IMG/VR virus record: IMGVR_UViG_3300032893_000302
Span: 1 to 20,839 of that record
DNA from: a virus
DNA: 20,839 nt
Strand: one strand, 5' to 3'
Both the position numbers and the translations under genes were made by a program. Positions within the stretch are counted from its first letter, which is position 1. Every line of letters begins with the position of its first letter. Shown piece by piece: positions 3,167 through 20,839 of the stretch. The notes below the pieces were generated by a model that searched no databases, had not been told where the DNA came from, and was given only the letters and a program-made list of their open reading frames with translations.

Positions 3167-3324
3167 AGAACGAAACGCCGTCCTCACACCCCAAGCAACG
3201 GGCGTACGAGCAGCACCGCCGGGAGTGGGCCGAGATTCACGGCCGGCCGATCCCGGCCGATCGCCCGGCCGCTATCCGCTACGGCGGCACGCAGCCGGTG
3301 TCCGACAGGGAGTGGAAGAAGTGA
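3163..3324 (+). CDS. Hypothetical small phage protein (53 aa), GTG start
   Basis: GTG 3163 overlaps the preceding TGA (GTGA) and the frame closes at TGA 3322-3324, again overlapping the next GTG. The product is hydrophilic (QRAYEQHRREWAEIHGRP, then IRYGGTQPVSDREWKK) with many Arg and His. No family is recognised. The double stop-start overlap argues that it is translated, coupled to the genes on either side. Confidence 0.5.
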   Translation: MKNETPSSHPKQRAYEQHRREWAEIHGRPIPADRPAAIRYGGTQPVSDREWKK

Positions 3325-3617
3325 CCGTCCGCCCGCTTCTCGACCGCATCCACGTCCGCCCCGCCGCCGACCGGCGCCTGTCGCCCGGCGGGATCGTACT
3401 GCCGGAGATCCGCCGCGAGCGCATGAAGACCGGCCACCTGGTCCCGGGCGAGCAGAAGACCCGCGAGGGCGTGGTCACCGCTGCAGGTCCGAAGGCGGGC
3501 GACGTCCAGATCGGCGATCGCGTCCTGTTCTACGGGCACGTGGGCTTCCCCACCGTCATTGACGGCGAGGAGCTGCTCGTCATGAAGAACGAGGACATCC
3601 TTGGGATTTTTGACTAG
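3321..3617 (+). CDS. GroES-like co-chaperonin (Cpn10 family, 98 aa)
   Basis: The protein begins MTVRPLLDRIHVRP, has the loop strand SPGGIVLPE, then REGVVTAAGP, IGDRVLFYGHVG and ends DGEELLVMKNEDILGIFD. This is the full Cpn10 pattern in order: R-P-L-x-D-R, GGI-LP, G-V-AxGP, GDRVLF and EELL-M-x-x-DILGI. Length is normal for GroES (about 97 residues). GroES caps the host GroEL chamber; phage versions such as T4 gp31 adapt the chamber to fold the coat protein. The residues between LPE and REGV, RRERMKTGHLVPGEQKT, form a charged insertion. The mobile loop that contacts GroEL lies before SPGGIVLPE and reads AADRRL, shorter than in host GroES. Spacing: GTG overlaps the preceding stop. Confidence 0.88.
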   Translation: MTVRPLLDRIHVRPAADRRLSPGGIVLPEIRRERMKTGHLVPGEQKTREGVVTAAGPKAGDVQIGDRVLFYGHVGFPTVIDGEELLVMKNEDILGIFD

Positions 3618-3835: not shown

Positions 3836-4066
3836 GTGATTAAGGGCCGTACGGTTAGGGTGAGCGACTGCCCGCAGGTGCTCACGCCTGAGGTGATCAT
3901 CGCCCTGCCGGACGGCTTCACGCTGCACGAGCTGCCGGACGGTACAGTAGCGCTCTGGAATGGCTGGGCCTTCATCGAGTTCGACAGCTTGGAGACTGCG
4001 CTGTCCGGTCTGCAGGTCGGCGTCGATGTGCTCAACCTCGCCACGGCGTGTCCGGGGCTGCACTGA
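3836..4066 (+). CDS. Hypothetical phage protein (76 aa), GTG start
   Basis: The frame opens at GTG 3836, four bases after the previous stop, and closes at TGA 4064-4066, overlapping the portal ATG (TGATG). The product reads MIKGRTVRVSDCPQV and later PDGFTLHELPDGTVALWNGW. The repeated pattern of PDG turns suggests a small beta-rich protein. No family is recognised. Its position immediately before, and coupled to, the portal gene fits a head-assembly operon. Confidence 0.55.
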   Translation: MIKGRTVRVSDCPQVLTPEVIIALPDGFTLHELPDGTVALWNGWAFIEFDSLETALSGLQVGVDVLNLATACPGLH

Positions 4067-6282
4067 TGGCCAACAACCCGCGAGACCCGAAGGACGACGG
4101 CAAGATCAAGCTCCCGCAGATCCAGGCCGGCATGAACAAGCGCGGGCCCACCGCCAGCGACGGCGGCAAGGGAGGCGACGACGGCGAGTGGACGTGGCTC
4201 GGCCGGCAGAAGTTCGAGGAAAAGGACGCCGACATCCTGGCCCGCGCGCGCAGCCGATTCGAGCGCACGGCCACTTCAGAAGCGGAGAACCGCAAACGCG
4301 CCGAGGACGACCTGAAGTTCCGCGACGGCCAGCAATGGCCCGCGGACGTCGCCGCACAGCGGAACATGGACAAGCGGCCGTGCCTGACCATCAACAAGCT
4401 GAACACGTTCGTGCACCTGATCACGAACGACATCCGCATGAACAGGCCGGCGATGAACGTGTCGCCGGTGGGCGAGCGGGGCGACAAGGAAGCGGCGAAG
4501 ATGTTCCGCGGCCTGATCCGCCACATCGAACGCGCCAGCGCGGCCGACATCGCCTATGACACCGCGACCGACAATCAGGTCACCAACGGCTTCGGCTACA
4601 TCCGCCTGCTGCTGGACTGGGAGAGCCCCGACAGCTTCCACCAGGTGCTGCGCATCGGCCGCGTGCGCAACCCGTTCACCGTCTACTTGGACCCCGACCG
4701 GCAGCAGCCCGACGGCAGCGACAGCCGCTTCGGCTTCGTGACCGAGGTCATGCCGCTCGACGAGTTCAAGGCTCTCTGGCCCGACCTGTCGCCGTCGTCC
4801 TACGACCTGGGCGCCATCGGCGACAAGTGGAAGGAGTGGAGCTCCAAGGACGGCGTTCGCGTCTGCGAATACTATGAAATCACTCACGAAACTCGCACGC
4901 TGGTGGAGCTCGACAACGGCTTCACCGGCTGGGCCGACGAGCTCGACGACAAGGTCAAGGACAGCCTGAAGGCCAAGCGCCTCACCTACCGCCGCAAGCG
5001 CGAGGCGCAGTACCCGAAGGTCATGCACTACAAGCTGACGGCCATCGACATCCTCGAGCGCGAGGAGTGGATCGGGTCGCACATCCCGATCGTGCCGGTG
5101 ATCGGCGATGAAATCGACATCGGCGGCAAGGTCTCCCTCCGCGGCGTGGTGCGCGACGCCAAGGGCCCGCAGCAGATGTACAATTACTGGCGGACCAGCG
5201 AGACTGAGCTCGTCGCCCTGGCCCCGAAGGCGCCCTACATTGTCGAAGAGGGCCAGATCGAAGGCCATGAGCGCCAGTGGAAGAACGCCAACACCCGGTC
5301 GTTCCCCTACCTGTCCTACAAGGGGACCAGCGTCGCCGGCAGGCCCGCCCCGCCGCCGCAGCGCCAGCCCTCGCCCCAGATCCCCGCAGGTGTCGTCCAG
5401 GCCGCCCAGAGCGCCGCGCAGGACATGATGGCGACCACGGGTATCCGCTTCGACGCCACCATGCAGGAGCGCATGACCGACGAGAGCGGCCGCGCGATCC
5501 GCGAGCTGCGCCGCACCTCCGACATCGGCGCCTTCCACTACGCCGACAACCTCAACCGCTCGCTCCGCTGGCTGGGCGAACAGCTGCTCGAGGCCATCCC
5601 CAAGGTCTACGACGAGGAGCGCGTGGTCACGATCCTGCGCGAGGACGACCAGGAGGAGCAGATCAAGATCAACCCGGCCGCCAACGCAGCCTATGGCGAG
5701 CAGAAGCGTCCTGACGCCGGCCCGGTGAAGATCTTCAATCCCAAGATCGGCAAGTATGGCGTCACCGTCACCATCGGCGAGAGCTACGCCACCAAGCGCA
5801 TCGAAGCCGCCGAGCAGATGATGGCCTTCGTCAAGGCGCTGCCGAACACCGCCGCCATGGTCGCCGACCTGATCGCGGCCGAGATGGACTGGCCGGGCGC
5901 CGAGAAGATCGCCTCGCGCCTGGCCAAGGCGATCGACCCAAAGCTGCTCACGCCCGATCAGAAGGACATTTCGCCGCAGGTGCAGGCGCTGATTCAGAGC
6001 CTGGAGACGCAGGTGAAGATGCTGCAGGGCGAACTGCAGCAGGCCCTGGCCGCGGTGAAGGACAAGTCCGAAGACCGCGACATCGCCCGGGAGAAGATCA
6101 CGGCCGACTTCGAGGCGAAGATCCTCGCCATTGTGCAGAAGGCCGAGGCCGAACGCTCCAAGCAGGAGAACGAAAACCTGCGGGCTGTGGTGCAGCACGT
6201 GAAAGACCTTACAATGCACCTCATGCCGAAACCCCAAGAGCCGGAGCGCGAAGCCGGCGAGGAGCCTGACGAAAATGCCTGA
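4066..6282 (+). CDS. P22-type portal protein (738 aa)
   Basis: The portal forms the dodecameric ring at one capsid vertex through which DNA enters and leaves. The length, 738 residues, is close to P22 gp1 (about 725). Diagnostic stretches include RPCLTINKLNTFVHLITNDI, NRPAMNVSPVG, GFGYIRLLLDWE, RVRNPFTVYLDPD, and later ATTGIRFDATMQERMTDESG. The last ~110 residues form a long heptad-rich coiled coil (from about residue 634, LIQSLETQVKMLQGELQQAL, to about residue 712), matching the C-terminal helical barrel of P22-like portals. ATG 4066 overlaps the previous stop; a start 18 bases upstream is possible but lacks the coupling. The scaffold gene overlaps its end by eight bases. Confidence 0.93.
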   Translation: MANNPRDPKDDGKIKLPQIQAGMNKRGPTASDGGKGGDDGEWTWLGRQKFEEKDADILARARSRFERTATSEAENRKRAEDDLKFRDGQQWPADVAAQRNMDKRPCLTINKLNTFVHLITNDIRMNRPAMNVSPVGERGDKEAAKMFRGLIRHIERASAADIAYDTATDNQVTNGFGYIRLLLDWESPDSFHQVLRIGRVRNPFTVYLDPDRQQPDGSDSRFGFVTEVMPLDEFKALWPDLSPSSYDLGAIGDKWKEWSSKDGVRVCEYYEITHETRTLVELDNGFTGWADELDDKVKDSLKAKRLTYRRKREAQYPKVMHYKLTAIDILEREEWIGSHIPIVPVIGDEIDIGGKVSLRGVVRDAKGPQQMYNYWRTSETELVALAPKAPYIVEEGQIEGHERQWKNANTRSFPYLSYKGTSVAGRPAPPPQRQPSPQIPAGVVQAAQSAAQDMMATTGIRFDATMQERMTDESGRAIRELRRTSDIGAFHYADNLNRSLRWLGEQLLEAIPKVYDEERVVTILREDDQEEQIKINPAANAAYGEQKRPDAGPVKIFNPKIGKYGVTVTIGESYATKRIEAAEQMMAFVKALPNTAAMVADLIAAEMDWPGAEKIASRLAKAIDPKLLTPDQKDISPQVQALIQSLETQVKMLQGELQQALAAVKDKSEDRDIAREKITADFEAKILAIVQKAEAERSKQENENLRAVVQHVKDLTMHLMPKPQEPEREAGEEPDENA

Positions 6283-11950: not shown

Positions 11951-13372
11951 ATGAAGACGCCGTTTCTTGGCCCGGCGTACCGATCACGCTCGCCCAACCT
12001 CGCCGATCAGCGCCTGATCAACCTATACCCGGAGATCGTCGAGACGAAGACGGGCAAGGAAGTCGGCGCTTTCTACAGCTGCCCGGGGCTGGTGCAGGTC
12101 GCCACCGTCGGCGCGGGCCCGATCCAAGCCATGCACGCCTTTGAAGGCCAGACCCTCTACGTCGTCTCGGGAAACCAGGTCTACGCGCTAGACACGTCGC
12201 TTGAGGCCCGCTCGGTAGGCTCGATCACCGTCAGCACTTCGCCGATCAGCATCATTGACAACGGCGTGCAGGTGGCGATCTTCCAGAACCCGAACGCCTA
12301 CAGCATCGTGGGTGGCGACTTGGCCCCCATTGCCCTGCCGTTCACCAATCCCGGGATCGCCGTCTACCAGGACGGGTTCGGCGTGGTGAACGAGGTCGGC
12401 TCGATCAATCTCTGGCAGTCGAACTCGTTCGACCTCACCACCTGGGATCCGCTGAACTTCGACACCGCAGACGGCTCGAGCGACTACATCGTCGCGCTGG
12501 GTGAGCTTCACCGACAAATCGTGGTCCTGAAGCAAGATCATGCTGAATTCTGGATTAACGCGGGAAATCCTGGCTTCGTCTTCCAGCGGCTGGATGGCGT
12601 TCATCTCAACGTCGGGTGCGTCGCCCCAGGCTCTCTGGCCAACCTCGGCGAGAACCTGCTCTGGCTCGGCCGCAACGCCGATGGCAACAACATCGTGCAC
12701 CTGCTCAACGGCTACGAGCCGCGCGACATGTCGACGCACGCGCTGGTGCGGGAGTTCAACAGCTACCCGACGACGACGGACGCGATCGGCTTCGCCTACC
12801 AGCAGGAACGCCACCTGTTCTATGCCCTGACGTTCCCCAGCGGCAACGCGACGTGGGTGCTCGACCTGACCGCCAGCCAGCAGCTCGGCGTGCCCTGCTG
12901 GCATCAGCGCGCCGGCTTCTCAAACGGCCAGTTCAACCGCTACGCGGGCCAGTGCGCCGTGAACTTCGCAGGCCAGATTCTGGTCGGAGATTTCGCGAGC
13001 GGGAACCTATACTCGCTGGACCTGGATAACTTCCAGGACAACGGGCAGACGCGGAAGTGGCTTCGCTCCTGGCGCGCGCTGCCCAAGCCGACGCTGCGCT
13101 CGACCAAGTACCACTGGCTCGCCATTGACCTCGAGACCGGAATCGACGTGCCGGACGGGGCCAATCCCCAGATCGTGCTGCGCTACAGTGACGATGGCGG
13201 CCACAACTGGTCGAACGAGCGGCAGACGTCGGCGGGTCTGACCGGGCAGACCGACCTGCGGGTCAAGTTCAACCGCTTGGGTATGTCGCGGCGCGGCCCA
13301 TCTGACCGGATCTTTGAGCTGTCGGGAACCGATCCGTTTAAGGTGGCGCTGTTGTCGGCGGAATTCGGCTGA
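11951..13372 (+). CDS. P22 gp10-like packaged-DNA stabilisation protein, tail hub (473 aa)
   Basis: The N-terminus, KTPFLGPAYRSRSPNLADQR followed by LINLYPEIVETKTGKEVGAF and CPGLVQ, is the diagnostic pattern of the gp10 family (Phage_stabilise). Strands continue with a repetitive WD-like beta architecture (LYVVSGNQVYAL, LLWLGRNADGNNIVHLLNG, WLRSWRALPKPTLRSTKYHW). The length is 473 residues, almost the same as P22 gp10 (about 472). The product caps the portal-gp4 channel and anchors the tail. It starts two bases after the gp4-like stop and its own stop overlaps the collar gene start (TGATG). Confidence 0.92.
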   Translation: MKTPFLGPAYRSRSPNLADQRLINLYPEIVETKTGKEVGAFYSCPGLVQVATVGAGPIQAMHAFEGQTLYVVSGNQVYALDTSLEARSVGSITVSTSPISIIDNGVQVAIFQNPNAYSIVGGDLAPIALPFTNPGIAVYQDGFGVVNEVGSINLWQSNSFDLTTWDPLNFDTADGSSDYIVALGELHRQIVVLKQDHAEFWINAGNPGFVFQRLDGVHLNVGCVAPGSLANLGENLLWLGRNADGNNIVHLLNGYEPRDMSTHALVREFNSYPTTTDAIGFAYQQERHLFYALTFPSGNATWVLDLTASQQLGVPCWHQRAGFSNGQFNRYAGQCAVNFAGQILVGDFASGNLYSLDLDNFQDNGQTRKWLRSWRALPKPTLRSTKYHWLAIDLETGIDVPDGANPQIVLRYSDDGGHNWSNERQTSAGLTGQTDLRVKFNRLGMSRRGPSDRIFELSGTDPFKVALLSAEFG

Positions 13373-14079
13373 TGCAGACGCAGGGCTTTCCGCTGCAGAA
13401 TCAGCCGCCGCTGGTCGGCGTGCCGGCGCTGTTCAATCAGGTCTGGTTCCAGTTTTTTCAGACGCTGTGGAATCGTCTCGGCGGCGCGCAGGTGGCCGCC
13501 GTGGTCCCAAGCGGCGCGATGCTGCCGTGCGGCGGCCCCGTGCAGGACGGCTACATCCTGTGCGACGGATCGGCGGTGTCGCGCACCGAGTACGCCGCAT
13601 TATTCGCCGTGATCGGCACGCGGTGGGGCGCCGGCGACGGCTCGACGACCTTCAACGTCCCCGACATGGTCGACCGCTTCCCGGTCGGGGCGGGAAACCT
13701 GTACGCGCTGGGCGACACCGGCGGGGCGGCGAGTGTCGAGCTCACGACCGCCCAGCTGCCGGCCCACAACCACGCGGTGACCGATCCGGGGCACACCCAC
13801 AACATCACCGACCCGGGGCACACGCACACGGTCAGCGATCCCGGCCACGTACACTCCTCGGTCGTCGCGGCGTCAAACGTCACCACCGGCACGTCAGCGG
13901 GCGGCGTGACCGCCGGGAACACCGGCTCGGCGACGACCGGGATCACCAATCAGTCGGCGATGACTGGTGTAGCGACCGTAGCCACTACCACCGGCGTCAC
14001 CACCCAGAACACTGGCTCGGGAACGGCAGTGCCGACCCTTCCGCCCTATGCCGCCGTCACGTGGATGATCAAGACATGA
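13372..14079 (+). CDS. Tail collar domain fibre protein (235 aa)
   Basis: Residues 47-109 are a phage tail collar domain: PSGAMLPCGG, GYILCDGSAVSRTEYAALFA, IGTRWGAGDGSTTFNVPDMV and DRFPVGAG. The first ~40 residues (FPLQNQPPLVGVPALFNQVW) probably attach to the virion. Four HxH pairs follow at His132/134, His141/143, His150/152 and His159/161, the last three in TDPGHTH-like repeats. Such HxH stretches bind metal in trimeric fibres. The C-terminus is a Gly/Thr-rich repeat ending PPYAAVTWMIKT, usual for collar fibres. In P22 this slot holds the tail needle gp26 (about 233 residues), which this protein replaces. It is likely the receptor-reading or adhesion fibre. Confidence 0.88.
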   Translation: MQTQGFPLQNQPPLVGVPALFNQVWFQFFQTLWNRLGGAQVAAVVPSGAMLPCGGPVQDGYILCDGSAVSRTEYAALFAVIGTRWGAGDGSTTFNVPDMVDRFPVGAGNLYALGDTGGAASVELTTAQLPAHNHAVTDPGHTHNITDPGHTHTVSDPGHVHSSVVAASNVTTGTSAGGVTAGNTGSATTGITNQSAMTGVATVATTTGVTTQNTGSGTAVPTLPPYAAVTWMIKT

Positions 14080-14633
14080 GCACGCCCTTTTTCATCACCG
14101 GCCTGCCGCGCTCGCGCACCGCGTGGTTCGCCATCGCCACGTCGACCGACAGGTCGGTCTGCCACCACGAGCCGCATTATGGGGACTTCGAAACCGCGGC
14201 CGAGCTCTGGGCGATGCAGTCGCGGTACGAGTTCGTGGGCATTGCTGACGCGGGCCTCGGCATGCATCTGCGGCGGATCCTGGACGAGGTCGGCCCGCGG
14301 ACGCTGATCATCGACCGCGGCCCCATGGCGGTGGCGGGTTCGCTGCGCAAGTACATGGGGTTGAGCGAGCAGCGGCTCGGGCCGGGCTGGTATCCAGCCC
14401 TGCTCGCCCGCCTCGAGGTGCTCGGCGCGGCGCTGGCCGTCGAGCATTCGCTGATCAAGCGGGTCGCCTTCGACGATCTCACGGACGTCGACACGCTGCG
14501 CGCCTGCTTCGACTGGCTCATGCCCGGCTGCAAGCCGCTGAACCTGGTGCAGCTCATGCACATGAACATTCAGAGCGATTTGGGCTATAACCTCGCCAAG
14601 CTGAGCCGTTTCCGCGACCTCTCGGCGACCTAG
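14076..14633 (+). CDS. Sulfotransferase-like P-loop protein (185 aa)
   Basis: The N-terminus FFITGLPRSRTAWFAIATST matches the PAPS-binding 5' phosphosulfate loop of sulfotransferases (G-x-PRS-x-T). CHHEPHYGDF follows. A later strand, TLIIDRGPMAVAGSLRKYMG, matches the 3' phosphate-binding motif R-x-P-x-x-V-x-x-S (Arg81, Ser89). At 185 residues it is shorter than bacterial or animal enzymes (about 250-350), as are other phage-encoded members. The ATG overlaps the collar gene stop. The reaction would be sulfate transfer from PAPS to an acceptor on a glycan, a protein or a small molecule. The acceptor is unknown. The catalytic His cannot be fixed from sequence alone. Confidence 0.72.
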   Translation: MSTPFFITGLPRSRTAWFAIATSTDRSVCHHEPHYGDFETAAELWAMQSRYEFVGIADAGLGMHLRRILDEVGPRTLIIDRGPMAVAGSLRKYMGLSEQRLGPGWYPALLARLEVLGAALAVEHSLIKRVAFDDLTDVDTLRACFDWLMPGCKPLNLVQLMHMNIQSDLGYNLAKLSRFRDLSAT

Positions 14634-14642
14634 GAGGGCATC

Positions 14643-15389
14643 ATGCCGTTCATTGCGCTCGCCGTCGCCGTCGGGCTGGGCGGCATCGCCTCCGGCGCCG
14701 GGGCGGCCATAGCTGGCGGCCAAGAGGCCAGCGCCGCCAAGAACGCCACCCAGGCCCAGCTGCAGATGTACAACGAGACGGTGGCGCGCGAGCAGCCGTT
14801 CGTCTCGGCGGGCACGAACGCGCTCGCGGCGCTGCAAGGCGGTCTGGGCCTGGGCCCGGCGACGGCGGGCGGCCCGGCGGCCGGCAGCTTGGTCGCGCCG
14901 TTCAACCCCGCCAACCTCGCCCAGACGCCGGGCTATCAGTTCCAGCTGCAGCAAGGCGAGCAGGCGCTGCAGGACGCGGCCAGCGCCACCGGCGGCGTCG
15001 GCGGCGGAAACGCGCTGAAGGCGCTCACCCAGTTCGGGCAGGGCTTGGCGGGGACCACCTACCAGCAGCAGCTGCAGGACTACCTGGCGCAGCAGTCGCA
15101 GATTTACAACGAGCTCTCCGGCGTCTCCACCACCGGCGCCAACGCGGCGGCCAACCTGGGTTCGATCGGCACGACAGTCGCCGGCCAGATCGGCAGCAAC
15201 ATCCTCGGCGCCGGCAATGCCGCGGCGGCGACCACGGCGGGAATCACCAACTCGCTCACCGGCGGGCTGAACACACTGTCGTCCAACTACCTGCTGGCCC
15301 AACTTCTTCAAGGCGGCGGGTTCGGCGCCGCCGGGGGGGCCGCGGCGGGCACGGCTGGCCTGGGCGACGTCGGCGCTGCGTTCGGGTGA
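14643..15389 (+). CDS. P22 gp7-like DNA ejection protein (248 aa)
   Basis: A strong AGGAGG (14632-14637) serves ATG 14643. The N-terminus is hydrophobic and Gly/Ala-rich (FIALAVAVGLGGIASGAGAA), like a membrane-active or signal-like stretch. The centre carries the gp7 pattern TPGYQFQLQQGEQALQDAAS followed by GGNALKALTQFGQGLAG. The end is Ala/Gly/Leu-rich (LLAQLLQGGGFGAAGGAAA). Length is close to P22 gp7 (about 229). gp7-type proteins are packaged in the virion and released with the DNA to help it cross the envelope. Position between the tail module and two larger ejection-type genes matches P22 gp7-gp20-gp16. Confidence 0.82.
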   Translation: MPFIALAVAVGLGGIASGAGAAIAGGQEASAAKNATQAQLQMYNETVAREQPFVSAGTNALAALQGGLGLGPATAGGPAAGSLVAPFNPANLAQTPGYQFQLQQGEQALQDAASATGGVGGGNALKALTQFGQGLAGTTYQQQLQDYLAQQSQIYNELSGVSTTGANAAANLGSIGTTVAGQIGSNILGAGNAAAATTAGITNSLTGGLNTLSSNYLLAQLLQGGGFGAAGGAAAGTAGLGDVGAAFG

Positions 15390-15392
15390 ACC

Positions 15393-16802
15393 ATGGCCCT
15401 GGACCCTTCGATCATCCTGGACATCAACCCGCAGCCGATCGATCCCAACACCTACGCGAAGGTGTTCCAGCAGGCCGCACAGCTGCGGGAGATCCGTGAT
15501 CAGCAGCAGTCCCAGAACATGCTGCGCGCGCTGGCGCAGCAGCCTGGCAACATCGACCCGAAGACGGGCTCGTTCACGCCCAACGCGTTGGCGCAGATCA
15601 CCAAGGTCAATCCGCAGCTGGGGATGAAGCTCGGCGAGCAGGCCGTGCAGGCGGAGAACGTCGCGGCCGAAGCCGAGATGCACAAGTCGCAGGCGTTTGC
15701 GGACAAGATGAAGGCTTCGCACGAGGTGGCGTCCGAGGCGGTGGACACCTACGACGCGGCCCTGGCCGGCGGCGCATCGCCCGACGCCGCGCGCATGCAG
15801 GCGCAGGACGTGCTGACCAAGGGTGTCGACAAGCTGCGCAAGTCCGGCATGTTCTCTGACGCCGAGCTCGCCCAAGCCCAGACGGAGTTCGATCCGGTGC
15901 GGACGCGCGCCAACGCCGGCAAGACGGCCGAGTGGCTCGACCGGGTGGAGCAGGCCAAGAAGGACGCGCTGGCCGAGAAGAAGGCCGAGGAGACCGAGCG
16001 CCACCAGCGGGAGGTCGAAGCGCGCGAGGAGCGCCATGAACGCGTCCAGGAGGGCTTGGAGGGCGCTCGCCTCAAGCTCGAGGAGCGGAAAGAGGCCCGC
16101 GAGGAGCGCGCGGCGAGCGACAAGCCCAACTTGTCGCCGCTGGCGATCGAAGGGGCCGCCGAGCAACTCCTGGCCGGCGATCGGTCGGTGCTGCAGAACT
16201 TCGGCCGCGGCAAGCAGGGCGCCGCCGACCTGGCCGCCGTGCGCAATCGGACCTTCGAGCTCGCCGCCGAGCGAGGCCTGAAGGGCGCCGACCTCGCCAA
16301 CATCGACGCCGCGTTCAGGGGTCAGGTGGCCGGCGAGCAAGCGCTGGGCCGGCGCGGCTCGCAGCTCGAGCAGGCCGGCAGCGCGCTCGAGGGCATGATC
16401 GGGCTGTCGAAGGAAGCCTACTCCAAGCTCCCGCGCGGCCAGTTCGTGCCGTTCAACAAGCTGCGCGCGATGGTCGACCACAACCTGTCGAGCCCCGAGC
16501 AGGCCGCGGCGTTCCAGTACGACGAGGCGGTGGTGAACGCCTGGGCCAAGAGCATCAACCCGAGCGGCGGCCTGACGGTATCGGACGTCAAGCGCGGCGA
16601 GGAAATGCTGAGCAAGGTCACCAGCGTCGAGGCCCACAACGCGGTGCTCGATGCGATGCTCAAGGAAGTGGCCAAGGAGCGCGGCGCCAACGTGTCGGCC
16701 CGCGCCAACCTGCGCGACCAGGGTGAGAAGGGTCCCGCGCCGCCGCCGGGGAAGAAGCTCCGCTACAACCCGAAAACGGGTGAGCTGGACGAAATCAAAT
16801 GA
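15393..16802 (+). CDS. Ejection protein, P22 gp20-like by position and length (469 aa)
   Basis: The length is 469 residues, close to P22 gp20 (about 471), and the gene sits between gp7-like and gp16-like genes. The N-terminal half is helical, with QQAAQLREIRDQQQSQNMLR. A long charged coiled coil follows at about residues 190-245 (AKKDALAEKKAEETERHQRE and onward). The C-terminal part includes FVPFNKLRAMVDHNLSSPEQ and ends in a proline-rich, basic tail. No enzymatic motif is visible. Ejection proteins diverge beyond easy recognition, so the assignment relies mainly on context. The stop overlaps the next ATG by four bases. Confidence 0.68.
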   Translation: MALDPSIILDINPQPIDPNTYAKVFQQAAQLREIRDQQQSQNMLRALAQQPGNIDPKTGSFTPNALAQITKVNPQLGMKLGEQAVQAENVAAEAEMHKSQAFADKMKASHEVASEAVDTYDAALAGGASPDAARMQAQDVLTKGVDKLRKSGMFSDAELAQAQTEFDPVRTRANAGKTAEWLDRVEQAKKDALAEKKAEETERHQREVEAREERHERVQEGLEGARLKLEERKEAREERAASDKPNLSPLAIEGAAEQLLAGDRSVLQNFGRGKQGAADLAAVRNRTFELAAERGLKGADLANIDAAFRGQVAGEQALGRRGSQLEQAGSALEGMIGLSKEAYSKLPRGQFVPFNKLRAMVDHNLSSPEQAAAFQYDEAVVNAWAKSINPSGGLTVSDVKRGEEMLSKVTSVEAHNAVLDAMLKEVAKERGANVSARANLRDQGEKGPAPPPGKKLRYNPKTGELDEIK

Positions 16803-18673
16803 CCATCGAAGTCGAAGGCCCGGACGGTCACACGGTGGAGTTCCCCGACGGCACGCCGACGGCGACGATCAAGGCGGCCATGGCCAAGCACTTCGGGGGG
16901 CCTAAGACTGCCGCGGCGCCCAAGGATCCGCATGACGAGGAGATCGAGCGCCAGCGGCAGATGATCCTGCAGTCGCAGGCCGAGCGCGAGCACCCGCTGG
17001 AAGCCTACGGCGAGACGGTCAAGGGCGCGGTCGACGCGGTGGTGGGGGACGTCAAGCGCCAGTTCACCGTACCCAAGAACTTGGGGGAGCTCGCCGAGCG
17101 TGCCTTCGATGCGACCAATCCGACGCATGCGGTGGCGGATGCGCTCAGCGCGGTCACGGCCCCGTTCATCGGCGGCCCGGGCGCGGTGGTTGAGCGCGCC
17201 ACGCGCTACAAGATGACGCCCGACCAGGTCGAACGCTTGGCCAAGACGCGCGCGGCGCTGCCGCCTGCCCTGCGCGACGTGGTCGCCCCGATCCCCAAGG
17301 GCTTGGATCCGACCGAGGCGCTGGCGGTGCTGGGCCCGGAGATGGGCGCTGGCGAGCAGGCGGCGTACCGCGCCAAGATGCTGGGCGGGGCGGGAACCGC
17401 CGCCAAAGCCGCTCCGGAGACCGCTGGGGCCGCTCGCGAGGCCGCGGCGGCTGCGGGCAAGCCGCAGGGGCGGACCAAGCCCACGGCCCCCGCGTTACCC
17501 GCGGGGACGCCTGCTGAGCGCTACCGCGCCCGCGTCGATCGCCTCACCAAGGAGGGCGTCGAGCTCACGCCGGGCCAGATCAAGGGCGGCGAGGCCCGCC
17601 GGCAGGAGGAGGCGCACAAGTCGCACCCGCTCTGGGGCAAGGCGGTGCGCGAGGCCGAGAACAAGTCCATCGTCTCGTTCAACCGCGCCACCTACGACAA
17701 GGTGCTGGCGCCGCTCGGCGAGAAGGTGGCCGCCAAGGAGCTGCCCGACGACATGATCGGGCGGGAGGGGATCGACCTGGTGGGCAAGCGCATCGGCGCG
17801 GCGTACGAACGGATCCTGCCCAAGATGCGGGCCAAGCCCGACCACCAGCTGGTCGAAGACCTGTCCGAGATCAAGGAAGACGGCGGCCTGCTGGGGCCCT
17901 ACGAAAGCACACTGAACCACATCATCGACCAGCGGATCGTCAAGCGCATGCAGGCTGGCGAACTCGACGGCCGCGAGGTCAAGCGGCTCGAGAGCGAACT
18001 CAGCTACTTGGCACGGCAGTACGGGTCGTCGCAGGACGGTGCTCAGAAGCTGCTGGCCGACCATATCGAGCGCGTGCAGAGCGCCCTGCATGACAACATG
18101 GAGCGCCACTCAGATCCGGCCGTGCGGGAGCAGCTGAAGAAGACCAACCAGGCATGGGCCGGGTATGTGCGCCTGCGCGGCGCCGCTGCCAACCGCGCCT
18201 CGTCCGGCGGGGTGTTCACCGTGGGCGACCTGCTCTCGGCGATCAAGCGCGAGGACAAGAGCCCCGGGAAAGGCTCGTTCGCGCGCGGCGATGCGATGCT
18301 GCAGGACCTGGCCGAGGATGCGAACGCGGTCATCCCCAACCGACTGCCCGACAGCGGCACGCCCGAGCGCCTCGCCCGCAACCGCATGGCGGGCGGTGTG
18401 GGCGCTAGCGTCGGCGGGGCCATCGGCGGCATCCCGGGCGCCGCAGCGGGGTGGGCGGCCGGCGAGGCGGTCAACGCCGCGGTGCCTCCGCTGACCAACC
18501 GCCTCGCGGCCATGGCGATCCGCGAGCGCCGCGCCGCCGCGCTGCAGCCCGGCTCGTCCCGGAACTACCTGAAGGGCGCCACCCAGCGCGTCGCCCGCGC
18601 GGCGCAGGCCGGCGCGATCACTTCGGCGATCACCGCCGAGCAACGCCGGAACCAGGAAAAGCCCCAGCAATGA
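16799..18673 (+). CDS. Ejection protein, P22 gp16-like by position and length (624 aa)
   Basis: The first residues (MTIEVEGPDGHTVEFPDGTP, then IKAAMAKHFGG) form the small 'VEFPDGTPxxxIKAAM' module found at the start of many large phage internal virion proteins. The central part is helical and rich in Arg/Lys/Glu (residues about 230-450), with RYRARVDRLTKEGVELTPGQ. Near the end a Gly/Ala segment (GGVGASVGGAIGGIPGAAAG) has the regular small-residue spacing of a glycine zipper and could insert in a membrane. The length, 624 residues, is near P22 gp16 (about 609). No lysozyme or transglycosylase catalytic motif was seen. It probably enters the cell with the genome. ATGA overlap at each end suggests coupled translation. 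Confidence 0.7.
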   Translation: MTIEVEGPDGHTVEFPDGTPTATIKAAMAKHFGGPKTAAAPKDPHDEEIERQRQMILQSQAEREHPLEAYGETVKGAVDAVVGDVKRQFTVPKNLGELAERAFDATNPTHAVADALSAVTAPFIGGPGAVVERATRYKMTPDQVERLAKTRAALPPALRDVVAPIPKGLDPTEALAVLGPEMGAGEQAAYRAKMLGGAGTAAKAAPETAGAAREAAAAAGKPQGRTKPTAPALPAGTPAERYRARVDRLTKEGVELTPGQIKGGEARRQEEAHKSHPLWGKAVREAENKSIVSFNRATYDKVLAPLGEKVAAKELPDDMIGREGIDLVGKRIGAAYERILPKMRAKPDHQLVEDLSEIKEDGGLLGPYESTLNHIIDQRIVKRMQAGELDGREVKRLESELSYLARQYGSSQDGAQKLLADHIERVQSALHDNMERHSDPAVREQLKKTNQAWAGYVRLRGAAANRASSGGVFTVGDLLSAIKREDKSPGKGSFARGDAMLQDLAEDANAVIPNRLPDSGTPERLARNRMAGGVGASVGGAIGGIPGAAAGWAAGEAVNAAVPPLTNRLAAMAIRERRAAALQPGSSRNYLKGATQRVARAAQAGAITSAITAEQRRNQEKPQQ

Positions 18674-20839
18674 GGGTGCTGATCATCGACTGCGAGCTGA
18701 TGGGCCTGGACTTCGCCCAGCGCTGCGTCGAGGACGGCCACGAGGTGCGCTGGTTCCTCAACCCTTCGACCGGCAAGGAGGGTGTGGGGTTCGACGGCGT
18801 CAAGCGCGTCCCCGATTGGCGCGAGCACATGAAGTGGGCCAAGGACGGCCTGATCGTGCTCACCGGCAACGCCAAGTACCTGCGCGAGCTCGAGGGCTAC
18901 CGCCGCATGGGCTTTCCGGTGTTCGGACCGTCGGTGGCCAGCGCCAAGCTCGAAATCGACCGGGCGGCCGGCATGCAAGCGATGCAGGAGGTCGGGATTG
19001 AGATTCCGCCCTACAAGCAGTTCGCTTCCCTGAAGGCCGCCGAGACCTTCGCCCGCAAGAGCGACCAGGCGTGGGTGTTCAAGACCATGGGCGACGAGGA
19101 GGACAAGTCGCTGTCCTACGTCTCCTCGGACCCCGCCGACCTGGTCGGCTGGCTGCAGCGCCAGCAGGCGCGCGGGCTGACGCTCAAAGGCCCCTGCATG
19201 CTGCAGGAGAAGATCGACATGGTGGCCGAGTTCGGGGTGTCCGGCTGGGTGGGGCCGGCGGGCTTCCTGGCCGACAAGTGGCAGCTGTGTTTCGAGCACA
19301 AGAAGCTGATGGCCGGGGACAAGGGCCCGAACTGCTTCACGCCTGATTCGGAGGTGCTGACGCGGACTGGCTGGAAGGCCTGGCCTGAGGTCACCATGGA
19401 CGACGACATTTGCACGCTAAAAGACGGTCAGATTGAGTACGAGAAGCCTAAGCGGGTGGTCGTCGGCGACTTCGACGGCGAGTTGATCGGGTGGCAGACG
19501 CCGTACTTGGACATTCTGGTCACACCCGGTCACAACATGTACGTGCAAGATGATCACTACCGCCAGCCGTTTTGGTTCGAGCCCGCGCACGAGACGCTGG
19601 GCCGACGCCGCACAGTTTTGCGAGCCGGCGGAGTTTGGCGGGGCGACCCGTCCCCGATTGCTGGCGAGCTCGAGCATGCGGCCCTCCTGGGCATTTATCT
19701 CGCCGACGGCAGCACTCACCGAGGTGAGGTAGTTTTTGGTAATCTGCCGGATCACAAGATCGCCGAATTTTCCCAGATCGTGGATTTGGCCGGATATGGT
19801 TTCAGGCTCCGCGGGAGAGATCTGGTTATCGGAGCGCCGTCGCTGGCCGAGTATTTCCGCGCCTTCGGTAAATCGCACGAGAAATTCGTGCCGAGCCAGA
19901 TGAAGGACGCCGAACCCAGTGTGATCAAAGCGTTCCTGGATGCCTACGCGTTAGGAGACGGAACCCGACGCCAAGGGAATCTCACGATCAGCACCAGCAG
20001 CCGCCGAATGGCGGACGACCTCCAAGAGCTCGCCCTGAAGGTCGGATGGGCTGCCAATGTCCGCGTCCGCGATCGACGTGGGGAGGCCCACCAGATCGGC
20101 GGCTACACCTGCGTTACCAACCACATCGGCTATGAGGTTGGGATTTCCAAGGACCGCCTGAAGGCCGAAATCTCGCCGGACTGCGCCTATCGGGATCGCT
20201 ATGCCGGCAAGGTCTACTGCGTCACGGTCTCGTCTCACGTCATATACGTCCGCCGCAACGGGAAGGCGTGCTGGATTGGACAGACTGGAGAGATGGGAAC
20301 GGTCTGCCAGTACGTGGAAGACGATCCGATCGTCGACGCGGCGCTGAAGCCCATGGAGCTCGCGTTGATCAAGGCGGCCCACCGCGGCGACTTCGCGGTG
20401 AACTGCGGGATCGACCGAAAGGGCCGCGCCTGGCCGTTCGAGTTCACCTGCCGGCTCGGCTGGCCGGCGTTCTTCATCCAGGTCGCCAGCCACAAGGGCG
20501 ACGTGGCGCAGTGGATGCGCGACCTGCTGGATGGCAAGGACACGCTCAAGGTGCGGCGCGATGTCGCGATCGGGGTGGTGCTGGCCCAGCCGCGGTTCCC
20601 CTACGGCGATTCCAGGCCCGAGATGGTGGAGGGCAACCCCATCGGCGGGATCGAAGGCGTCTGGTCGCAGGCGCATCCGGCGCAGATGATGCGAGGGGTG
20701 GGCCCGGTGATGGGCGGCGGCCGGGTGGTCGACGCGCCGACCTACCAGACGGCCGGCGAGATCGTCGCGGTGATGACTGGCCTCGGCGCGACCGTCGAAG
20801 ACGCGCGCAAGGACGTGTACGGCGCGGTCGACGAGGTCA
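18670..20839 (+). CDS. PurD-like ATP-grasp ligase interrupted by an intein (partial at the right edge)
   Basis: The frame is open from ATG 18670 (overlapping the previous TGA) to the window end. Without the intein the residues follow glycinamide ribonucleotide synthetase (PurD): FGPSVASAKLEIDRAAGMQA (residues 85-104), VFK (137-138 area), FEHKKLMAGDKGPN (208-221) joined to TGEMGT, EFTCRLGWPAF (591-601), and GVVLAQPRFPY with a C-terminal LGATVEDARKDVYGAVDEV like the PurD C-domain. PurD normally joins glycine to phosphoribosylamine using ATP. Here the N-terminal GG-REHA motif is missing (MRVLIIDCELMGLDFAQRCV), the Gly-rich ATP loop is altered, and the RFGDPE signature reads RLGWPA. The spliced product would exceed 400 residues, near PurD's ~430. 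Function is PurD-like but the substrate is uncertain. Confidence 0.83.
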   Translation, partial: MRVLIIDCELMGLDFAQRCVEDGHEVRWFLNPSTGKEGVGFDGVKRVPDWREHMKWAKDGLIVLTGNAKYLRELEGYRRMGFPVFGPSVASAKLEIDRAAGMQAMQEVGIEIPPYKQFASLKAAETFARKSDQAWVFKTMGDEEDKSLSYVSSDPADLVGWLQRQQARGLTLKGPCMLQEKIDMVAEFGVSGWVGPAGFLADKWQLCFEHKKLMAGDKGPNCFTPDSEVLTRTGWKAWPEVTMDDDICTLKDGQIEYEKPKRVVVGDFDGELIGWQTPYLDILVTPGHNMYVQDDHYRQPFWFEPAHETLGRRRTVLRAGGVWRGDPSPIAGELEHAALLGIYLADGSTHRGEVVFGNLPDHKIAEFSQIVDLAGYGFRLRGRDLVIGAPSLAEYFRAFGKSHEKFVPSQMKDAEPSVIKAFLDAYALGDGTRRQGNLTISTSSRRMADDLQELALKVGWAANVRVRDRRGEAHQIGGYTCVTNHIGYEVGISKDRLKAEISPDCAYRDRYAGKVYCVTVSSHVIYVRRNGKACWIGQTGEMGTVCQYVEDDPIVDAALKPMELALIKAAHRGDFAVNCGIDRKGRAWPFEFTCRLGWPAFFIQVASHKGDVAQWMRDLLDGKDTLKVRRDVAIGVVLAQPRFPYGDSRPEMVEGNPIGGIEGVWSQAHPAQMMRGVGPVMGGGRVVDAPTYQTAGEIVAVMTGLGATVEDARKDVYGAVDEV
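19333..20283 (+). mobile_element. Intein with LAGLIDADG-type homing endonuclease (317 aa)
   Basis: The intein begins at Cys222 (TGC 19333) in CFTPDSEVLTRTGWKAW, a standard N-terminal block A. Block B is ILVTPGHNMYV with Thr285 and His288. Two endonuclease motifs follow: LLGIYLADG (residues 339-347, Asp346) and FLDAYALGDG (422-431, Asp430). The C-terminal block reads AGKVYCVTVSSHVIYVRRNG, then KACWIGQ, and the next extein residue is Thr539. The last residue is Gln, not Asn, and the penultimate residue is Gly, not His. Removing it joins GDKGPN to TGEMGT, restoring the PurD loop GPNTGGMG. Both acidic motif residues are present, so the endonuclease may be active. Splicing itself is predicted. Confidence 0.92.

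Follow-up and report, generated by a model that had tools for sequence, protein, structure and literature searches.

Conserved substitutions at the substrate site of a PurD-like ligase family encoded beside phage DNA-ejection genes

The stretch of DNA analyzed here, hereafter the window, comprises the whole of IMG/VR record IMGVR_UViG_3300032893_000302 (20,839 bases), and the last gene within it belongs to a widespread virus-specific family of PurD-like ligases in which substrate-binding residues have been swapped in a conserved manner and which very probably joins different molecules than PurD. Both sequence and structure give good support to the view of this protein as a phage-specific PurD-like ligase that is under strong selection and has changed substrates. 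From the computed fold, retained and replaced residues, selection, clade and synteny we further infer catalysis, substrates and target, and moderately favor an active ligase of the carboxylate-amine type whose substrates have changed and which probably modifies virion or ejection proteins.

The ligase gene and its genomic context

The list of ORFs, domain and profile matches, and synteny with relatives identify the window as a phage structural operon (Table 1). The original prediction had placed the ligase gene in such an operon, and the synteny of the neighboring ejection genes supports that placement. The ATG of the ligase ORF overlaps the TGA of the preceding ejection gene by 4 bp, and the ORF remains open through the end of the window, the spliced in-window product being 406 aa in length. 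Since the relatives examined are contiguous and approximately 440 aa long, the ORF is truncated, with about 35 residues lying beyond the window.

Table 1. Features of the window, with the evidence for each
Feature	Position	Strand	Evidence and remarks
Large terminase	656-2017
GroES-like protein / co-chaperonin	3225-3617		PF00166 (E 1.4e-12); follows terminase and precedes portal
P22-like portal	4048-6282
Scaffold-size and coat-size genes			In the structural operon
Protein of phrog_1574	9853-10581		Matches phrog_1574 (unknown), weakly a glycosyltransferase family; adjoins coat-region genes
Head-closure protein	11951-13372
Collar-domain tail protein			In the structural operon
Sulfotransferase-like protein	14076-14633	+	Family alignment and model; directly upstream of ejection cassette
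Ejection cassette gene 1	14643-15389	+	Inferred from order and size; same in relatives (cluster 4)
Ejection cassette gene 2	15393-16802	+	Inferred from order and size; same in relatives (cluster 5)
Ejection-type protein 3	16799-18673	+	phrog_26400 DNA ejection protein, E 1.2e-13; synteny; ends QQ
Ligase, N-extein	18670-19332	+	Pre-ATP-grasp domain and first part of ATP-grasp domain; whole-length alignment with intein-free relatives
Rewritten ATP loop MGDEEDKSLS	19087-19116	+	PurD counterpart of G-x-GKGV type; loop Lys at 19105-19107 kept
Putative intein, 317 aa	19333-20283	+	ORF residues 222-538; Cys1 to Gln317, +1 Thr; LAGLIDADG_3, E 1.5e-9
Ligase, C-extein	20284-20838	+	Remaining ATP-grasp domain and GARS C-domain; end lost to window edge
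Motif EFTCRLGWPA	20440-20469	+	PurD equivalent E-F-N-x-R-F-G-D-P-E

The insertion within the ORF, not detailed in the original prediction, is a putative intein by its N-terminal Cys, in-frame position, C-terminal Gln and +1 Thr, and by the existence of relatives without an insertion, the relatives recovered in extein scans with the spliced sequence and with the profile being free of inteins. It interrupts the ligase at the active-site motif GPN|TGEMG and would have to splice out before the active site could form. Related inteins occupy exactly the same site in L177, L178, L179 and L181, bringing the total to five phages; the ligases of L179 and L181 fall in a more distant sister subfamily that shares the SGE and E-x-T-x-R signatures. 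The last intein residue is Gln in the window and in L177, and Asn in the others.

Relationship to PurD

A profile built from 21 members of the ligase family retrieved, among solved structures, PurDs at E down to 1.7e-39, with no other hit below E 0.1, and at the level of sequence the relationship between the ligase and PurD is therefore far beyond chance. Both GARS_A and GARS_C were matched by all 21 members scanned; in L004, GARS_C scored above and GARS_A just below the cut-off. Structure prediction, which had been proposed together with the original prediction, yielded an AlphaFold2 model (from 59 relatives; mean pLDDT 95.8) showing the complete fold of PurD. Specifically, 13 PurD entries lead the structural search (Z 31.9-35.8, 18-23% identity), well ahead of PurK and PurT at Z of approximately 24. 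Domain matches, modeled fold and conserved catalytic residues thus uphold the earlier statement that the ATP-grasp core and C domain are intact. In a library of viral structures, no full-length PurD-like match was listed; the named viral structures matched the model in part, the best reaching a TM of 0.45 over the query.

Like PurD (TIGR00877; PDB 2yw2, 2xcl, 2qk4, 1gso), the phage ligase combines N, ATP-grasp and C domains with the ATP-binding Lys, the Mg-binding Glu and the carboxylate-binding Arg, whereas it differs in sequence (approximately 21% identity), in its conserved swaps of substrate residues, and in its position next to ejection genes. The fold, the lysine pair K137 and K145, and the acidic metal ligand E273 place it in the ATP-grasp superfamily, whose overall plan is shared by PurK and PurT; these enzymes are nonetheless farther from it than PurD is by sequence, by structure, and in a tree with PurT-type outgroups. 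In this tree, inferred by a quick method with a midpoint root from phage members, outgroups and 30 cellular PurDs (all of one phylum), a branch with an SH-aLRT of 99 and a stem of 2.48 changes per site sets off the phage rows, and another, with a support of 98, sets off the cellular PurDs. Such a topology fits an old split between ligase and PurD and does not fit a host purD having been captured recently. Phage-encoded ATP-grasp ligases have been described before, in that ATP-grasp or COOH-NH2 ligases are annotated, and amidoligase and amidotransferase genes listed, among the phages compared in one study (PMC6209634); no amidoligase or amidotransferase genes were seen at E 1e-5 among genes of at least 90 aa in two near-complete genomes of relatives.

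Retained and replaced residues

The original prediction singled out three departures from PurD, each of which was examined across 60 phage members and 30 cellular PurDs, with residues numbered by the L036 protein. The GGREHA motif, which in PurD forms the N-terminal loop that presumably binds phosphoribosylamine, is replaced, reading ELMGLDFA in the window, and the RFGDPE signature reads RLGWPA, both as predicted. The ATP loop likewise has the sequence predicted, but it is rewritten and not lost, K145, the counterpart of the Lys in the GKG of PurD, being kept in 59 of 60 members. Because all three changes are family-wide states, they are not errors in a single sequence.

Nine further residues are shared by both families and kept in all 60 phage members (E94, K137, K210, G218, G222, E273, R277, G279 and P281), while E186 is kept in 58, with Asp in the rest. 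Set against these are positions at which a residue found in 30/30 PurDs has given way to a different one in 60/60 phage proteins: Lys to R97, Glu to Q178, Asp to E208, Gly to E223, and Asn to T275. At two additional positions the replacement varies, PurD Asp becoming W280 (49 members) or Tyr (10), and PurD Glu becoming A282 (39, the rest mixed). Within the motif EFTCRLGWPA, then, the metal-binding Glu and carboxylate-binding Arg are kept, and Asn, Asp and Glu have become Thr, Trp and Ala. Both GGREHA and the Pro-Glu of GPE are absent from the phage family; over the whole PurD signature (GGREHA, GPE, GKG, D-H-K and E-x-N-x-R-x-G-D-P-E), the Lys, metal Glu and Arg remain and the other elements are replaced.

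In PurD, ATP is recognized by Lys103, Lys143, Glu185, Glu192 and Lys214, and glycine by Asp212, Arg287 and Glu292 (PMC8880213). When these contacts are mapped, the published numbering being matched to the Aquifex PurD alignment by residue counting, the ATP-recognizing residues and the Arg on the carboxylate side are retained, one glycine contact has changed to Glu, and another is usually lost. As the residues recognizing the amine of glycine and, presumably, phosphoribosylamine are replaced by another conserved set, the phage ligase would not be expected to make GAR. Since the ATP, Mg and carboxylate-Arg residues are retained, it is proposed, by analogy with PurD, that the ligase, having bound MgATP, would convert a carboxylate to an acyl phosphate and then pass the acyl group to an amine.

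Scores against the purD model agree with the residue data. The NCBIfam purD equivalog has a cut-off of 288 bits, against which L036 scores 72 bits and cellular PurDs score 482-628 bits; the best E-value among 59 members is 3.4e-32. By the tests run, namely score and signature residues, the phage ligase is not PurD.

Distribution, selection and hosts

A search with the spliced ligase sequence recovered 30 viral contigs, and a profile search, with confirmation, raised the number of IMG/VR stretches encoding relatives to at least 514, the family thus being common in environmental phages. Genome contigs yielded seven copies. In a collection of GenBank phages, the only close relative lies at 42140-43336 of MW202796 (L031), a stretch without an annotated gene, and no PHROG family matches the ligase at E 0.1. 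For six pairs of ligases with unsaturated synonymous sites, dN/dS ranged from 0.037 to 0.15, and the residues that are invariant across members down to 38% identity are the catalytic Lys, Glu and Arg.

Against the purD model, the copies integrated in four hosts score 65-108 bits, and three of the four host genomes also carry a true purD. In the fourth, Rhodanobacteraceae ZG21-1 (G028; L099 and L203), purH is present and no PurD above the cut-off was found among the contigs searched, possibly owing to an assembly gap; the best match to the purD model in this genome is the prophage ligase.

Ejection genes and accessory enzymes

In most loci the ligase gene comes after an ejection-type gene. The distance between the two is below 1.2 kb in all 49 loci tallied and below 10 bp in 21, with 4-bp overlaps in 16; two more loci, at 4.2 and 6.8 kb, were left out of this tally. 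Between ejection gene and ligase there is often a gene (e.g., L004:9642-10001) for a protein of 113-141 aa that shows a conserved HEL(V/I)E motif and, judged by eye, resembles a metallopeptidase, and in some relatives lysis genes are found nearby, downstream of the ligase.

Upstream of the ejection genes, at least one sulfotransferase-like, Asp/Asn beta-hydroxylase-like or acetyltransferase-like gene is present in 48 of 64 ligase loci, and none of the three kinds in the other 16. After grouping at 85% identity the proportion is 35/49, as compared with 0/11 for phages without the ligase, controls that are few, divergent, in some cases partial, of shared ancestry and thus not independent of phylogeny, and one of which, PBR31, carries an acetyltransferase annotation not picked up by the search. 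The Asp/Asn beta-hydroxylase-like oxygenase is recognized by PF05118 in 8 of 26 records, and the label acetyltransferase-like derives from one annotated relative (MW202796). A model of the window's sulfotransferase-like protein (pLDDT 87.5) has tyrosylprotein sulfotransferases as its best, though weak, PDB matches (E 4.6e-5, TM 0.63 over the query). The same protein carries GLPRSRTAW, a motif of P-loop type.

The ejection protein nearest the ligase is poorly conserved except at its C-terminus: among homologues from ligase-bearing loci, 24 of the 33 left after deduplication have Gln there, and among homologues or proteins in the equivalent position of phages without the ligase, 3 of 11 do (Fisher p 0.012, uncorrected for relatedness). 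Overlap of the two genes does not force this residue, because several homologues have CAG before TAA or TAG. The association is suggestive and not independent of phylogeny; given the three ligase-free phages that share the Gln, it was set aside as proof of the ligase's target and kept only as a hint.

Possible functions

The changed substrate-site residues around an intact core agree with the original prediction of a ligase with different substrates, whereas the accompanying idea of a modified base found no support, no genes for DNA base modification being seen at E 1e-5 among genes of at least 90 aa in the two near-complete relatives inventoried. The neighborhood instead favors modification of a protein or peptide: a position among late ejection genes and near sulfotransferase-, hydroxylase- and acetyltransferase-like genes suggests that the ligase may add an amino acid, or some comparable group, to a peptide or to a protein of the virion or ejection machinery. 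A bolder version, in which the ligase and these three kinds of enzyme form a cassette for the covalent modification of DNA-ejection proteins, with the C-terminal Gln of ejection protein 3 as one possible site, strikes us as distinctly unlikely. We know of no post-translational maturation of the ejection machinery in any characterized phage.

It is possible, though unlikely, that an active ligase instead acts upon a small molecule or a component of the host envelope (an amino acid conjugate, a cell-wall precursor or a nucleotide), its late-gene position merely setting the time of expression. PurD itself acts on small molecules, the phage protein preserves the fold down to the C domain, and the lysis genes of some relatives lie close by; yet neither of the two genomes inventoried revealed biosynthetic partner genes at E 1e-5, and the recurrent neighbors comprise ejection genes together with types of enzyme that commonly have proteins as substrates. 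A genuine though diverged GAR synthetase, serving as an auxiliary purine gene, would share the fold and C domain, and viral purD is listed as such a gene in snow phages (PMC11097641) and vent viruses (PMC12043954), a gene of GART type being likewise listed for ocean viruses (PMC11360552). The host in which no true purD was found among the contigs searched would also suit this explanation, which is nevertheless highly improbable given a score far below the equivalog cut-off, conserved changes at GGREHA, GPE, the metal Asn and two glycine contacts, the purD genes of the other three hosts, and the lack of purine genes at E 1e-5 in the two relatives. Location among structural genes and altered substrate motifs might, finally, point to a catalytically dead structural protein retaining the PurD fold, but this is hardly to be credited when the catalytic residues are invariant among such divergent members and five phages carry a homing intein within the active-site motif.

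Implications

Annotation of the phage ligase as a purine gene should be avoided, as the family is prone to be called purD in virus surveys and such a label would misread it as purine metabolism. As a relative of PurD that has the same fold and C domain and changed substrates, the family constitutes a natural experiment in ligase specificity. Should the target of the active ligase favored here prove to be the ejection apparatus, its activity would represent a new step in virion assembly.
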